Source of the DNA: a virus | IMG/VR virus record: IMGVR_UViG_3300046009_000662 | Span: 1 to 28,362 of that record | Direction: 5' to 3' (one strand) | DNA: 28,362 nt | Shown here: one piece after another, positions 6,528-27,672 of the stretch | Layout: every line of letters begins with the position of its first letter | How positions within the stretch are numbered: the stretch's first letter is position 1 | The notes under the pieces: model-generated | Seen by the model: the letters and a program-made list of their open reading frames with translations, nothing else | Database searches by the model: none | Told to the model about the DNA's origin: nothing | Position numbers and translations under genes: made by a program

Positions 6528-9500
6528 TGGCATATCGTCTTAATCCAATAGTAGCCAAGGCTAGTCCCAACCTTTATGCCGCTGCTAAAGCCGCAAATAT
6601 TCCTATGGAACAGGGAACCCAATTAGAACAATTTAGTTGGACTGTTGAAAAAAATAAAAAATTAAATCAATTACCTATTGATGCTGCCCGTAAAGAATTT
6701 GAGGGTTTAGACCCTAGTGCTCAAGAAAAACTAAAGTTTTTATTTCCAGAATCAGATTATCAATTAGCAGAACCAGGTGCTAGTAACTATCTTACTGGTG
6801 CAATAAAAACTGGATTTACAGTTCTTAAGAGTCCATTAGTTTTATTGTTTAAGGCTGCTGGTGTTTTCAATAGAGCAATTAATACACCCTACCTACTAGC
6901 CCGTCAGGCTGCACAAGGTGAAGGTTTATTTACTAAAGAATCATTTAGTGATGCTTGGGATGGTCGCAGAGTTTATGACCAAGGAGCATTAACAAATGCT
7001 ATGGATTATTTTGGTGTTGAAAAAGTAGAGATAGCAAAAGGTTTAATTGCTGGTAAAAAACCAGGAGAGATTATTGCTAGCGCTGGTGGTGCAATAAATC
7101 CAAAAATGCTAGATGCTTTAGAAGAAGCGTATAATAATCCAGAAGCATTTCAGCAAGTAATGGATGGCGTTAAGAATGCACAAGTATCTCCAGGTAGAGA
7201 TATTAGCCGTGCTACTGGAATACAAGGCATCTCTGGTCCTATAGATTTTATATATCAAATTGCAGTTGACCCACTAACTTATGTTACTGGTGGTGTAAGC
7301 GCTGCTATTAAAGGCAGAGTACTTGGTATGGCTAATCAAACTGGTACTCAAATGCGTAAGACTATTGAGCAGTTTGGTGTTGCTGGAGTAAGAGATATAT
7401 TCCGAGACAACAAAGATGTAGTTAAGTTATGGGATGACCAACTAGGTCCTGAAATTAAAAGACTTAATGCCGAGCCAGATGAGATTGCTAAAATTGGAAT
7501 ACGTAATGATATTAAAAGACGTTTTCCTGGTTATAACAACGATGAGGCCATTGACTTCCTAGAAAGAAACAATGTTGTCAATGCTAGTCGTGCTCAAACA
7601 GTTTTTACAAATGTTGATAATCTATCTATGTTTATGGCAGGTAGAGTTGAGGGTGCTCAGTTCTTCCGCAATGGTATAGCCACTGCAAGAAACCAACGCA
7701 GGTTAACTACTGGTGCTCAAAAAGCACTAAGTAATTTCCTAAATCCTGCATCTGGTACTACTAAAGAAATTGCTAAGTCAGTTGATGAAATATCAAAGTC
7801 ACTTGTTAAAGCAGGTTCTACCCGTGAGGCTGAGTTAATAGGTCCAGAAATAATAGACTTTACAAAATTTACCCGTAAGAATCTTAAAGAAAAAGTTTCT
7901 CTTCTTTTAGCACGTACTCCACAAAATAAAGAGATTAAACTTAATGTTACTGACAGTAACCAGTCTATTAAAACTGCAAACGTCTTTAGAGATACAGCAC
8001 GTCAGGTATTGCCAAAGGATTTGTCAGAGGCTTTAACTGTTAAGTTTATTAACTCTACTGCAAATGACCAAGTTGCTATGCTTCGTAGCCTTGATGTTGC
8101 AATTATGCAACGTTTGGGAATTGAAGGCACAGAAAAGGGTAGAGATTACATAAGAAAAACCCTTGAAGAAAAATATGGTTCTTCAGTTGGTGTAGCAGTT
8201 ACTGAAAAATTAGATGTTCCTATAGGTTTTGAAAATGTTGTATCCAAGGCTGGTGTTAAACTAGATGGCGATGCAGTAAAATTTGACTCAGAAGGTATTA
8301 TCCACCCATTTCAAGAGCGTGGTGCAATATCTACCCTTGATTATCAACAACTAGCACAGTATTCCTATGAAGCAAACAGAGGAAAATTAGTTTCCGCTAT
8401 GTTTGGTGGCGCTACAAGTAGCGCATTAGCAACTGGAATTGTTAATTTCTGGTCTTTGTTTACACTTTTCCCACGTTTAGGTATACGAAGCAGCATTGAT
8501 GAAGGTTTTATTTACTATCTGACAGCACCTGCTAAGGATTTATTCCAATACTTAGACCGTAAAGGTCATAGAATGGGCAGAATTGCTGCTGCATACTCTG
8601 GTTCTAGGAGTGGTGAACAGTTAAGAGTTAAGATTTCTAGAGCAATGGGTAGAAAAACCCCTGCTGATATGTACGATAAAGATGCAAGATTGGCAATGAT
8701 TAGCGATTACGCTAATACAGTTGGCAAAGAGCCAGAAGAACTAACATCTTTAGAGCGTAAGTTAGCCCAAGCCCAATATATTACTGAGGCAATGAACCGT
8801 AAAGGTTTTCTTGGTAAACTAAATGATAATGAAGTTCAGTTCTTAATACAAGGATTAACTTTAAACTCACAATATCTAACTGCAGGTACCAGGTCTATTG
8901 CTGCAGGAGCAAGCCTTGTTGGACGTCAGTCAACTGAGGTTGCTGAAGAGTTAGTTAATATGAGTAACCTTGATATAGCCGTAGGTCTTTTCCCAGATTT
9001 GGCTAAAGGTAAAACTGGTCAAAGAATAGATACAGAGAAGTTGGCTTCACTTCAAGCCCTTGCAGGTCGTGGTGTTTCTTTAGTTCATTTTGAAAATTTT
9101 GTGCAACGCTTCTATGGTAATACTAGAAAGATTCAAGGTATTAGTGAGAAGTATAAGTTTAATCCAGTTGCTGCGTTTGTATTAAGCAAAGGCTTAAGAA
9201 CAGAGCGTGACTTTGCTGGTGCTAAAACTTACCTATTAGAAAACGTAGGTCTAAGAAAAAATACAGACCTACTTGGTAGATTTGATGAGGATGTAATACC
9301 TACATTAGGTGTAAAAATTACACACTCAGTTAAAGACCCAGAAGCACTAAAAGACTTTTTAAATATGACAGCCCATACTAGCGCTTTGCGTTTGCAAGGA
9401 CTAGATGATATGGAAATTGCTGAGGTTTTAATTGACCGTGTTCTACTAGATATGCGTCAGACTTTCCACGGTAGTGCATCAGGGTTCAATGAAGCATTGT

Positions 9501-24724: not shown

Positions 24725-24949
24725 ATGAGCAAAGTTACTGAAATTAATGCAATAGAAAATGAAGTGGTTGAAAGAGATTACACTGAAGCAGAATTAGCCC
24801 AGCGAGAAATTGACCGCCTATCTGATGAGGCAAGAGAAGCCGAATTGTTGGCTGCTGAGGAAGCAAAAGCAACAGCCAAAGAAGCAGCACAGGCTAAACT
24901 TGCAGCCCTTGGCTTAACTGTTGAGGATTTACAGGCTCTAGGTCTTTAG
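24725..24949 (+). CDS. Small acidic coiled-coil protein after the fibre genes
   Basis: The 74-residue product is a single long predicted helix rich in E and A (AELAQREIDRLSDEAREAEL, LLAAEEAKATAKEAAQAKLA) ending LGLTVEDLQALGL. Similar short helical proteins follow fibre genes in other phages and may help folding or attachment of the fibre, but the sequence gives no direct proof. It is the last forward gene before the HNH insertion and has a poor ribosome site, relying on three-base proximity to the previous stop. Confidence 0.75.
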   Translation: MSKVTEINAIENEVVERDYTEAELAQREIDRLSDEAREAELLAAEEAKATAKEAAQAKLAALGLTVEDLQALGL

Positions 24950-24988
24950 CATAATCTTGAGGGATTGTTCTACAAATATTAATAACTA

Positions 24989-25417
24989 TTAAGGAGCACT
25001 GTGGCTGGTCGTGATTGACTGCCACTTGTTTAAGTAGTTAATGGCTGACTGGAGATACTCAGGGTTATCCTTGAAGTATCCCAGTCCAGCATTACATCTA
25101 ATACAAAGTAATCCTCTAGGTTTATTAGTTATATGACAGTGGTCGGCAGACCAATCTCTATTGGTATATTTAGTAGTGCCACATATGCCACATTTATTTT
25201 CTTGAAGTTTTAAATATTCGTTGTACCTATCAATATCCCAACCAGGAACTCTGCGTTTATTTTGAGCACGAATCATTTCTTTATTATTCAAACGGTATTG
25301 TTTCTTTTTGATAGAAGCACAGTCTTTACATCTGGATTCAATACGAATTTTTCTATTATTTCTAATATAAAATTTAGAATGTGGTAGTTCAAGTTTACAA
25401 TCAATACAAATTTTCAT
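24989..25417 (-). CDS. HNH homing endonuclease, endonuclease VII type
   Basis: The only convincing reverse-strand gene. The 142 residues carry an N-terminal zinc knuckle (C4-x2-C7 and C30-x2-C33), a basic linker, then C76-x2-C79, the D92-H93-C94-H95 motif, C105-x2-C108 and N109, a structural zinc plus HNH (beta-beta-alpha metal) site as in recombination endonuclease VII relatives. Such enzymes nick or cut DNA and spread their own gene into unoccupied alleles. The conserved fold ends near YLNKWQ; the tail SITTSHSAP is the complement of the target gene's original ribosome site and start. ATG at 25415-25417 has no ribosome site but lies six bases after a perfect extended -10, so a leaderless message is predicted. 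Confidence 0.92.
   Translation of the reverse strand: MKICIDCKLELPHSKFYIRNNRKIRIESRCKDCASIKKKQYRLNNKEMIRAQNKRRVPGWDIDRYNEYLKLQENKCGICGTTKYTNRDWSADHCHITNKPRGLLCIRCNAGLGYFKDNPEYLQSAINYLNKWQSITTSHSAP
25001..25018 (+). pseudogene. Orphaned original start of the large tail gene
   Basis: AAGGAG (24991-24996), four bases of spacing, then GTG GCT GGT CGT GAT TGA encodes M-A-G-R-D and stops. The tail gene on the far side of the HNH insertion continues A-G-R-D-I-T-E, so this is best read as the original 5' end, cut off by the insertion. The ribosome site still looks functional and would make a five-residue peptide. Confidence 0.7.
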
Positions 25418-25423
25418 AGTTAA

Positions 25424-25432
25424 ATTATACCA
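25424..25432 (-). promoter_or_regulatory. Extended -10 promoter of the HNH gene
   Basis: On the reverse strand TGG-TATAAT is a perfect extended -10 (TGnTATAAT). Six bases (TTAACT) separate it from the HNH ATG, so transcription should begin at or within a base of the start codon. A 17-base spacer puts CGCTAT at -35, which does not match TTGACA; extended -10 promoters can act without it. Confidence 0.6.
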
Positions 25433-25435
25433 TAT

Positions 25436-25441
25436 GGAGGT
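25436..25441 (+). promoter_or_regulatory. New ribosome site before the rebuilt tail-gene start
   Basis: GGAGGT lies five bases before ATA at 25447, the position where ATG of a rebuilt M-A-G-R-D would be. Strength and spacing indicate that translation from 25447 is intended even though the codon is not a standard start. Confidence 0.6.
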
Positions 25442-25446
25442 GTATC

Positions 25447-27672
25447 ATAGCGGGCAGAGACATAACCGAAGGTGATGATAATGTATGGCCCTTATCGGGC
25501 GATGGATTACCTATTGCTCGTGGTACCGCAGACATTGGTATTGTTTCTACAAGTACATACTGGCAGAATACATCTGACTCATATGATGTAGCAGTTGGTG
25601 GACAACCATTCTTCTATGCCATAAATGACCAACGTCCATACATTAGACAGACTGCACCTTACAAGAAGGACCAGTTTGATAATGGAGCAGAACCAGGTGA
25701 GCAATCACTTACTGGCTGGTGGATTAGAAGTCAGTCATCTTTCCACAGTGGCGAAGGCATTAAGTTCTATGACCCATCTGCTGGCGAGACAGTTGCCCAT
25801 AGATTTACAGATAGCAAAGGTGTAGATGTCTGGACTAAGGGCGAGGTAACTCTACTTAAAGATGTTGCTACTGGACACGTAACATCATATCCAGTTGAAT
25901 CTAATGGTCGTGCATTTCAACAACTACGTTCTATCAAATGGGGTACAACTAACGGCGTACTACTACACGATGGATATGATGTAGATAAAATTGATACTGC
26001 TGGAGCAGAGACTCACTTTATTGACTTTAATGCTGGTTCAGATGACAAGGTATATGCAATCTGTGATGATGGTACTTCAGCCTATTGGGTAACCAATGAT
26101 ACTGGTCCATCTGGAAAACTAGAAGTAAACTCAAAGCCTTTGGTTGGTGATGCATCTACATCTAAGACTACTTTGTTTACCGCTGCTGGTATTACAGTAA
26201 CCAATGCAACTATGGAATATGTTAAAGACCGTATTGTTATGGCTGCTAATAATAAGATATATGAGTTCTCTACATCAGCATCATCATTACCTGCTGCTGT
26301 GTATACACACTCTGATTCAGATATTATTTTTACCTCTATTACAGCATCTGGTCCTGCTATTTATGTTGCTGGCTTTAGTGGTATCCAATCATTTATATTT
26401 AAGTTTACCCTTAACACATCAGGTGTTATGCCAACCCTTACCTCAGCAATTACTGCAGCAGAGATGCCAGCAGGTGAAAAAGTTTACAAGATTTATTACT
26501 ACTTAGGCTATATGATGATAGGGACAAACAAGGGAATCCGTGCAGCAGTTGTCTCTGACCAAGATGGCTCCATTAACTATGGTCCACTAATTGTGGAAAC
26601 CACTCAGCCTTGCTATGACTTTGCTGCACGAGACAGATTCGTCTGGTGTGCAACTGGCGTAGATGGTGAGCCAGGAGTTATCCGCATTGACCTTGGCAAT
26701 GAGGTAGAAACCCTACGTTTTGCTTATGCAAATGATTTATATTATTCAGGTGTATCTGGTGTAGATACTACATCCTGTGCATTCTTAGGAGAAACAGATA
26801 GGCTTGCATTCTGCACAGAAGCAGTAGACCAAAAAGCAGTAACTAATAAAGAACGCACTGGAACTACTGCAACTATTACATCTAATGCACACGGCTATGT
26901 GGCTGGAGATAGTATATATGTTATTGGTGTAGATGCAGCACTAGATGGCAACTTTACTATTACCTCAGTAACTACAAATACAATTTCCTACACTACTGCT
27001 ACATCTGGAACTATTGCATCTACTGCAGTAACTACTGGATTTGTTGGCAAGCCTGGTTATTCATACTTAGAAGCAGCATCTACATTGCTACCTACTGGTT
27101 ATATAACTACAGGTTATATCCGATACGGTACATTAGAGCCTAAGAACTTTAAGCGTTTACTTGCTCGTGGTGACTTTACCTTCGGTTCATTAGTACTTGA
27201 AACTGTAGATAAAGATGGTGTTGAGTATGACCACATTACCTACGAAGCAGGAGTAACTGCAGTTGAAGTTGGTACTAATAATCCTGACACAGCGCAGGAG
27301 TATGTAGCCTATAAGTTTGTTCTTAACCGTGATGCTACAACTACTAGCCAAGGTCCAGTATTTAAGGGCTATCAAGCAAAGGCTACTATTGCTACACCAC
27401 GTCAAAGAACTATGCAGTTTCCTGTTTATTGTTTTGATATTGAAACAGATAGATACAATGTGGTATCTGGTTATGAAGGTAAGGCACTAGCACGACTACA
27501 ACTACTAGAAGGAGTTGAAGAGAATGGCGACGTTGTTACCTGGCAAGACCTTACTACTGGCGAAAGTCGTCAGGTAGTTATTGAGCAAGTCTCATTTACA
27601 CGTATGACTCCACCTGATAAAAGGTTTGATGGATTCGGCGGCGTAATTGAGATAACTATTAGAACGGTATAA
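25447..27672 (+). CDS. Large tail protein (nozzle/tail-tip candidate) with non-standard start
   Basis: The frame is open from 25420 to the TAA at 27670-27672. From 25447 it gives about 741 residues beginning (start)-AGRDITEGDDNVWPLSG. The part before 26140 is clearly coding: WQNTSDSYDVAVGGQPFFYA, LTGWWIRSQSSF, GTTNGVLLHDGYDVD. No ATG, GTG or TTG lies in frame until TTG at 26140, which would discard about 230 residues, so the real start is ATA 25447, a mutated ATG, or another mechanism. The body has repeated beta-strand blades (KIYEFSTSASS, GPAIYVAGFSGIQSFIFKFT), like a beta-propeller. A central insert (NAHGYVAGDSIYVIG) resembles small domains of other tail proteins. A T7 gp12-like nozzle or other minor tail protein is inferred from fold impression and position only. 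Confidence 0.7.
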   Translation: MAGRDITEGDDNVWPLSGDGLPIARGTADIGIVSTSTYWQNTSDSYDVAVGGQPFFYAINDQRPYIRQTAPYKKDQFDNGAEPGEQSLTGWWIRSQSSFHSGEGIKFYDPSAGETVAHRFTDSKGVDVWTKGEVTLLKDVATGHVTSYPVESNGRAFQQLRSIKWGTTNGVLLHDGYDVDKIDTAGAETHFIDFNAGSDDKVYAICDDGTSAYWVTNDTGPSGKLEVNSKPLVGDASTSKTTLFTAAGITVTNATMEYVKDRIVMAANNKIYEFSTSASSLPAAVYTHSDSDIIFTSITASGPAIYVAGFSGIQSFIFKFTLNTSGVMPTLTSAITAAEMPAGEKVYKIYYYLGYMMIGTNKGIRAAVVSDQDGSINYGPLIVETTQPCYDFAARDRFVWCATGVDGEPGVIRIDLGNEVETLRFAYANDLYYSGVSGVDTTSCAFLGETDRLAFCTEAVDQKAVTNKERTGTTATITSNAHGYVAGDSIYVIGVDAALDGNFTITSVTTNTISYTTATSGTIASTAVTTGFVGKPGYSYLEAASTLLPTGYITTGYIRYGTLEPKNFKRLLARGDFTFGSLVLETVDKDGVEYDHITYEAGVTAVEVGTNNPDTAQEYVAYKFVLNRDATTTSQGPVFKGYQAKATIATPRQRTMQFPVYCFDIETDRYNVVSGYEGKALARLQLLEGVEENGDVVTWQDLTTGESRQVVIEQVSFTRMTPPDKRFDGFGGVIEITIRTV

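Follow-up and report, generated by a model that had tools for sequence, protein, structure and literature searches.

Among the described systems closest to the element reported here, WHO elements of Torulaspora and Lachancea yeasts, whose target is FBA1, replace the 3' end of that gene with a resistant version (fragments about 400 base pairs (bp)), and their cleavage has been demonstrated by experiment (PMC7282813). In fungal mitochondria, mORFs with a replacement C-terminus are found in Allomyces atp6 and in Glomus atp6, atp9, cox2 and nad3 (PMC3630166). The present element was found in IMG/VR phage record IMGVR_UViG_3300046009_000662, analyzed from position 1 to 28,362 (the window, that is, the whole stretch of 28,362 nucleotides (nt)); it carries an endonuclease VII-type (DHHRN/HNH) gene and splits a 741-codon phage structural gene behind codon 5. 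With a probability of about 0.8, it is an end-replacing homing endonuclease cassette of phages, which would swap the 5' end of its target gene for a cleavage-resistant version. As in WHO, a homing endonuclease gene lies between a rebuilt target gene (resistant in WHO) and a discarded old fragment, and every integration exchanges one end of a protein-coding gene, a change that alters the gene's sensitivity to cleavage in WHO and would do so here, with repeated invasions and different specificities (PMC7282813). WHO differs in acting on the 3' end of a yeast nuclear gene with an intein-like, zinc-finger enzyme, whereas the phage element affects the 5' end, over 5 to 10 codons, and brings a new ribosome site and start together with an endonuclease VII-type enzyme, cleavage being inferred here from sequence. 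The mORFs are similar in that an endonuclease open reading frame (ORF) arrives with a replacement for one gene end and preserves the protein, the differences being largely synonymous, but they concern the 3' end, are mitochondrial and usually of the LAGLIDADG type, and their divergence is attributed to horizontal transfer (PMC3630166).

Homing enzymes of the endonuclease VII type do exist in phages, as F-CphI of cyanophage S-PM2 (DHHRN family) illustrates; it too is phage-encoded, carries the endonuclease VII catalytic motif towards its C-terminus and targets a conserved phage gene, but it relies on a group I intron to protect its own target, whereas the element in the window has no intron and a recoded gene start would protect it (PMC6083498). 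Intronless homing of the T4 type (SegF, SegG) and mobA and mobE likewise involve free-standing HNH or GIY-YIG genes that spread between phages, and with mobA and mobE essential genes are interrupted and go on in separate coding regions; in these systems either the gene under attack is itself divided or the target is found in an adjacent gene, and a short duplicated recoded start is not described in the available portions of these sources (PMC2988022, PMC3014915). Engineered home-and-rescue drives (HomeR) also combine a homing element in an essential gene with rescue of that gene, but are synthetic, CRISPR-based and used in insects (PMC7968924). For a start-rebuilding element acting on the 5' end in phages, no description was found in the open-access literature, a scope in which absence weighs little; a WHO-like mode of action, mirrored to the 5' end and served by an unrelated nuclease, is thus apparently undescribed in phages.

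In the window, an old and a new start of the same gene flank the element. An earlier note on this DNA, made from its letters alone, had read the left side as a ribosome site followed by GTG GCT GGT CGT GAT and TGA, and the right side as a new ribosome site followed by GCG GGC AGA GAC and ATA ACC GAA in a long frame, all four repeated codons being differing synonyms (GCT GGT CGT GAT against GCG GGC AGA GAC). These readings hold at the following coordinates.

24948 to 25015, plus strand: left flank plus old gene start; by blastn it matches the element-free L034 at 100% over 68 nt (70 nt in L054), and the match stops exactly at the insertion point.
24991 to 24996, plus strand: old Shine-Dalgarno sequence AAGGAG, read from the sequence; many relatives lacking the HNH gene (HNH-free) have AAGGAGCACT.
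25001 to 25018, plus strand: discarded old start GTG GCT GGT CGT GAT TGA (M-A-G-R-D-stop; GTG to GAT at 25001-25015, TGA at 25016-25018), from the sequence and relatives.
25016 to 25461, no strand assigned: inserted element of 446 bp with endonuclease gene, new ribosome site and recoded start, its junctions taken from comparison with the empty site.
24989 to 25417, minus strand: endonuclease VII-type (DHHRN/HNH) protein of 142 amino acids, from Pfam, PHROG, profile matches and the ratio of nonsynonymous to synonymous substitution rates (dN/dS).
25424 to 25432, minus strand: extended -10 box TGGTATAAT, 6 nt ahead of the endonuclease ATG, seen by eye.
25436 to 25442, plus strand: new Shine-Dalgarno sequence GGAGGTG, conserved within the window's subgroup.
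25447 to 25449, plus strand: predicted new start codon ATA, where other copies have ATC, GTG or ATG, from the sequence and a comparison of copies.
25450 to 25461, plus strand: recoded codons 2-5, GCG GGC AGA GAC (A-G-R-D), four of four synonymously changed.
25447 to 27672, plus strand: target structural gene of 741 codons (PHROG 11667), probably a tail gene, predicted from its open frame to be read from the rebuilt start.

The second ribosome site lies about 430 nt downstream of the old start, and ATA ACC GAA from 25462 continues the rebuilt frame, which stays open until the stop at 27672. The last 9-10 codons of the minus-strand endonuclease come from the old gene start. No in-frame ATG, GTG or TTG occurs for the rebuilt gene between the upstream stop and 26140, where TTG is the first canonical start, leaving ATA as the only plausible start of the structural gene in the window; translation would start from ATA here and from ATC in some other copies. 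Such rebuilt starts can be missed by standard gene callers: the mechanical ORF list for the window begins the gene at 26140, 231 codons late.

The empty site is well represented among relatives. Most of the 80 relatives of the target gene retrieved for comparison have an uninterrupted AAGGAGCACT GTG GCT GGT CGT GAT ATA/ATT ACC GAA GG or a near variant, and the joined junction GTG GCT GGT CGT GAT|ATA ACC, which the earlier note had proposed to look for, is present in dozens; the sequence of the element-free target site is GTGGCTGGTCGTGATATAACCGAAGG. Because the match to L034 runs to GAT (25015) and that to the element-free L077 begins at 25459 (87.9% over 2.9 kb by blastn), the insert can be delimited to 25016-25461. 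A second IMG/VR contig (L002/L084) has the same junctions and matches the window at 100% over a stretch of about 7 kb that spans the insert; this, together with many independent copies of the same layout, rules out a chimera or other artefact of assembly. The same note had named one finding that would undo its reading, namely both A-G-R-D copies in relatives lacking the HNH gene; across the whole viral contig collection, the interrupted left copy occurs in seven contigs, all seven with the gene, and HNH-free relatives have one uninterrupted copy.

The nuclease matches Pfam PF02945 (E=4.7e-19, residues 56-131 of 142) and PHROG 2633 (E=1.4e-32), and profile searches lead to Hpy99I and T4 endonuclease VII. 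In an alignment of eight copies, C76/C79, D92, H93, H95, R101, C105/C108 and N109 are invariant, so that the catalytic D, H, H, R and N and two CX2C pairs, the residues that define DHHRN (endonuclease VII-motif) homing endonucleases in the F-CphI paper (PMC6083498), are all present. The motif falls within the C-terminal half of the protein, the position typical of the endonuclease clade and not of the resolvase clade, and the nuclease is not of the type that defines the WHO family proper (intein-like, with a zinc finger). An AlphaFold model was of middling confidence (predicted local distance difference test 69, predicted template modelling score 0.44) and its best match in a fold search was Hpy99I, with poor superposition; family assignment therefore rests on sequence. 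With dN/dS of 0.04-0.29 among copies, the gene is under purifying selection. A search of bacterial genomes gave a single distant match, in Herbidospora cretacea.

Further copies, sought with the window nuclease and then with the alignment of eight nucleases, amount to about 20 distinct elements of the same layout. They are scattered over the phage family tree in both orientations, mostly with the nuclease on the minus strand, and a record of about 40 kb contains a single nuclease of this kind. The start of the target gene is the site of almost every copy; only more distant homologues (L101, L102, L104, L126/L127) lie elsewhere. In L099 a plus-strand nuclease forms an in-frame fusion with the first codons of the target (M-A-T-R-D-I), and the target restarts as ATG GCT ACA AGG GAT TTG ACC; L125, with a nuclease relative of 39% identity, likewise has a same-strand fusion and a rebuilt start, in a diverged homologue of the target. 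Phages with target genes about 61% identical carry nucleases that are 93-98% identical (nuclease vs target 98% vs 61% for L111/L112, 96% vs 62% for L041/L100, and also L041/L098), and a tree of the target gene (162 rows, 19 with the nuclease) requires at least 17 switches between carrying and lacking it. The marks of homing, that is, one precise site, empty alleles and a distribution in conflict with the host gene, are all found, and in the window and most copies the nuclease sits between a rebuilt functional gene end and a discarded old end. L041 and L098, with target genes 61% identical, share one mutated left remnant, GTGGTCAGTCGTGAT, from which it follows that a discarded start can travel with the cassette.

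That the element brings its own recoded 5' end, as the earlier note had suggested, is supported by these copies. The arginine codon differs between the discarded and the rebuilt start in all 15 copies with both ends readable, the changes being CGT to AGA, CGT to CGC, AGA to CGG and AGA to AGG, and it differs in 13-15% of HNH-free pairs with at least 90% tail identity. Among 147 HNH-free alleles this codon is CGT in 106, AGA in 32, CGC in nine and CGG or AGG in none, and among 20 rebuilt copies it is AGA in 10, CGG in seven, AGG in two, CGC in one and never CGT (CGG and AGG together 9/20). Carriers set against their closest HNH-free relative (at least 90% identity) have 3.0 of the four codons 2-5 synonymously changed, against 0.68 of four in HNH-free pairs (permutation p = 5e-5), and downstream synonymous divergence in the same comparison is no higher in carriers (0.11 vs 0.15). 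Phylogenetically independent pairs associate the nuclease with a non-CGT codon about nine times for and none against (median p 0.004).

Ordinary divergence could also be hypothesized, with the second start supplied by recombination between diverged phages and its codon differences having no role in immunity. Possible donors exist (HNH-free phages with AGA and with ATC or TTG starts plus GGAGGTGT ribosome sites) and the recoded blocks do ride along with the cassette, but the divergent block measures 5-10 codons, lies exactly at the insertion point and is followed at once by target sequence of the recipient type. After six changed codons, L096 and L004 agree at every one of the next 98 nt, which gives the block a sharp end, and L122 and L091 (97%) are otherwise the same in the first 25 codons except at codon 8. 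The absence of CGG and AGG from the HNH-free alleles and the constant left-right difference at arginine also argue against this alternative. Recombination, which the earlier note had itself raised, stands in part as the vehicle, homing being recombination between phages; on its own it leaves the sharp block and the CGG and AGG codons unexplained and is improbable.

Less probable still is that recoding guards against loss of the element, identical direct repeats around 430 bp being prone to recombine and delete it while diverged copies survive. The same left-right difference inside the duplicated codons would be predicted, but a perfect repeat here would span no more than about 15-18 nt. Six copies (L010, L045, L111, L115, L118 and L123) are also recoded at codons 6-10, beyond the stretch duplicated on the left, which is expected if a cut site spans the insertion point, and copies with no left remnant still have a non-CGT codon (CGG in L120/L121, AGA in L200).

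It is hardly credible that the new start was shaped by needs of the nuclease gene itself, such as a promoter or binding site overlapping the rebuilt codons. The minus-strand nuclease promoter does directly adjoin the rebuilt start (25424-25432), but L099 and L125, with the nuclease on the other strand and using the old start, have changed rebuilt copies all the same, and the recoded codons vary widely (GCG GGC AGA, GCT GGA AGA, GCA GGA CGG) with no common promoter motif. Boxes resembling TGGTATAAT were seen by eye in most minus-strand copies, and a generic promoter scan did not single out a nuclease promoter; given a -10 box 6 nt before the ATG, the endonuclease mRNA is probably leaderless. 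An intron or programmed translational bypass joining GAT (25015) to ATA (25462), with the second A-G-R-D incidental, would give exactly M-A-G-R-D-I-T-E but can be dismissed as next to impossible, since no Rfam family was matched in the region at E up to 1, 446 bp almost wholly occupied by the endonuclease gene leave no room for a group I intron, and the new ribosome site and start vary among copies as only a used start explains.

Under the homing cassette reading, the endonuclease VII-type enzyme would recognize the conserved first codons (..GTG GCT GGT CGT GAT^ATA ACC GAA GGT..) in a co-infecting phage and cut at or near codon 5/6 of the target gene. The element-bearing genome would serve as repair template, with sequence up to the old start as left arm and the gene from about codon 6 as right arm, and the endonuclease gene, new ribosome site, new start codon and recoded codons 2-5, sometimes up to 10, would be copied in between. 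The old start would remain as a dead 5-codon remnant and the gene would be read from the new one, with the protein kept. Because an unaltered rebuilt start would recreate an intact target, the start would have to be recoded, and its synonymous rewriting would make the carrier immune. Successive enzymes would have switched targets, some attacking CGT alleles and carrying AGA, others attacking AGA alleles and carrying CGG or AGG.

Several observations weigh against this reading or narrow it. Sequence comparison shows the precise insertion, the empty site, mobility across the phage tree, purifying selection on the nuclease, the rebuilt start and systematic recoding, whereas cutting at this site and resistance of the recoded copy are inferred. 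The recoded blocks travel with the cassette and the copies are not all independent, so that, to be safe, the left/right combinations at codon 4 number at least four rather than fifteen. Recoded states are not exclusive to carriers, since HNH-free phages also have AGA (32/147) or ATC starts (9/147), and L120/L121 and L200 have no readable left remnant. The rebuilt copy of L125 has one amino acid difference and was excluded from the counts. In one nuclease clade, the L116 enzyme lies next to an AGA remnant and the rebuilt copy of L115 itself has AGA; the arginine codon therefore cannot be the sole determinant.

Beyond the cassette itself, a running arms race over synonymous codons is on balance a slightly favoured interpretation. 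Nucleases of shifting specificity would repeatedly invade the same five codons, each with a freshly recoded start; codons, ribosome sites and the start codon (to AUA or AUC) would then be set by immunity to nucleases rather than by translation, and HNH-free recoded starts would be immune relics or escape alleles, attacked by later enzymes. L122 looks like such a second round of invasion: its discarded start, ATC GCT GGT AGA GAT, is of a type found in HNH-free L091 that resembles the rebuilt starts in the window's subgroup, and the start that took its place reads GTG GCA GGA CGG GAC. L039, an HNH-free record of 39.2 kb, has a start of the rebuilt type (ATC GCA GGC AGA GAC ATT ACG GAC GGC AGG) resembling that of carrier L045 and may be a relic.

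ATA or ATC starts were counted in eight of the 20 rebuilt copies vs nine of the 147 HNH-free alleles; a direct effect of the element is not claimed, independent pairs giving five for and two against (p about 0.45, not significant). In the HNH-free records L039 and L086-L092, ATC is the first codon of the structural gene and follows a GGAGGTGT-like ribosome site, with CGT in some and AGA in others; the non-canonical AUC start seems to persist where the element is absent.

If the reading is correct, evolution in phages arrived at the home-and-rescue design that engineered gene drives use, in this case by invading a conserved structural gene, rebuilding it and making it uncuttable by synonymous changes. 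The rescue copy of HomeR is reportedly recoded as well. The locus would also provide a clean system, repeated many times, for how homing endonucleases shift specificity and how few synonymous changes confer immunity, and would allow one to ask if unusual start codons (AUA, AUC) can become fixed in important genes through selfish nucleases.

Two further arrangements concern more distant nucleases. In L126/L127, a nuclease relative of 36% identity overlaps the start of another structural gene (ATGACCCGCAAGTTC..), where a duplicated start was not seen. In L089, a distant endonuclease VII-type gene (about 40% identical; 8517-9104, minus strand) at the start of a different structural gene may represent the same strategy at another target; to the left it is flanked by ATG GCT ACA ATC CAG and to the right by ATG GCT GTT GTC AGC, which belongs to the next gene, and a TGGTATAAT box immediately precedes its own ATG.
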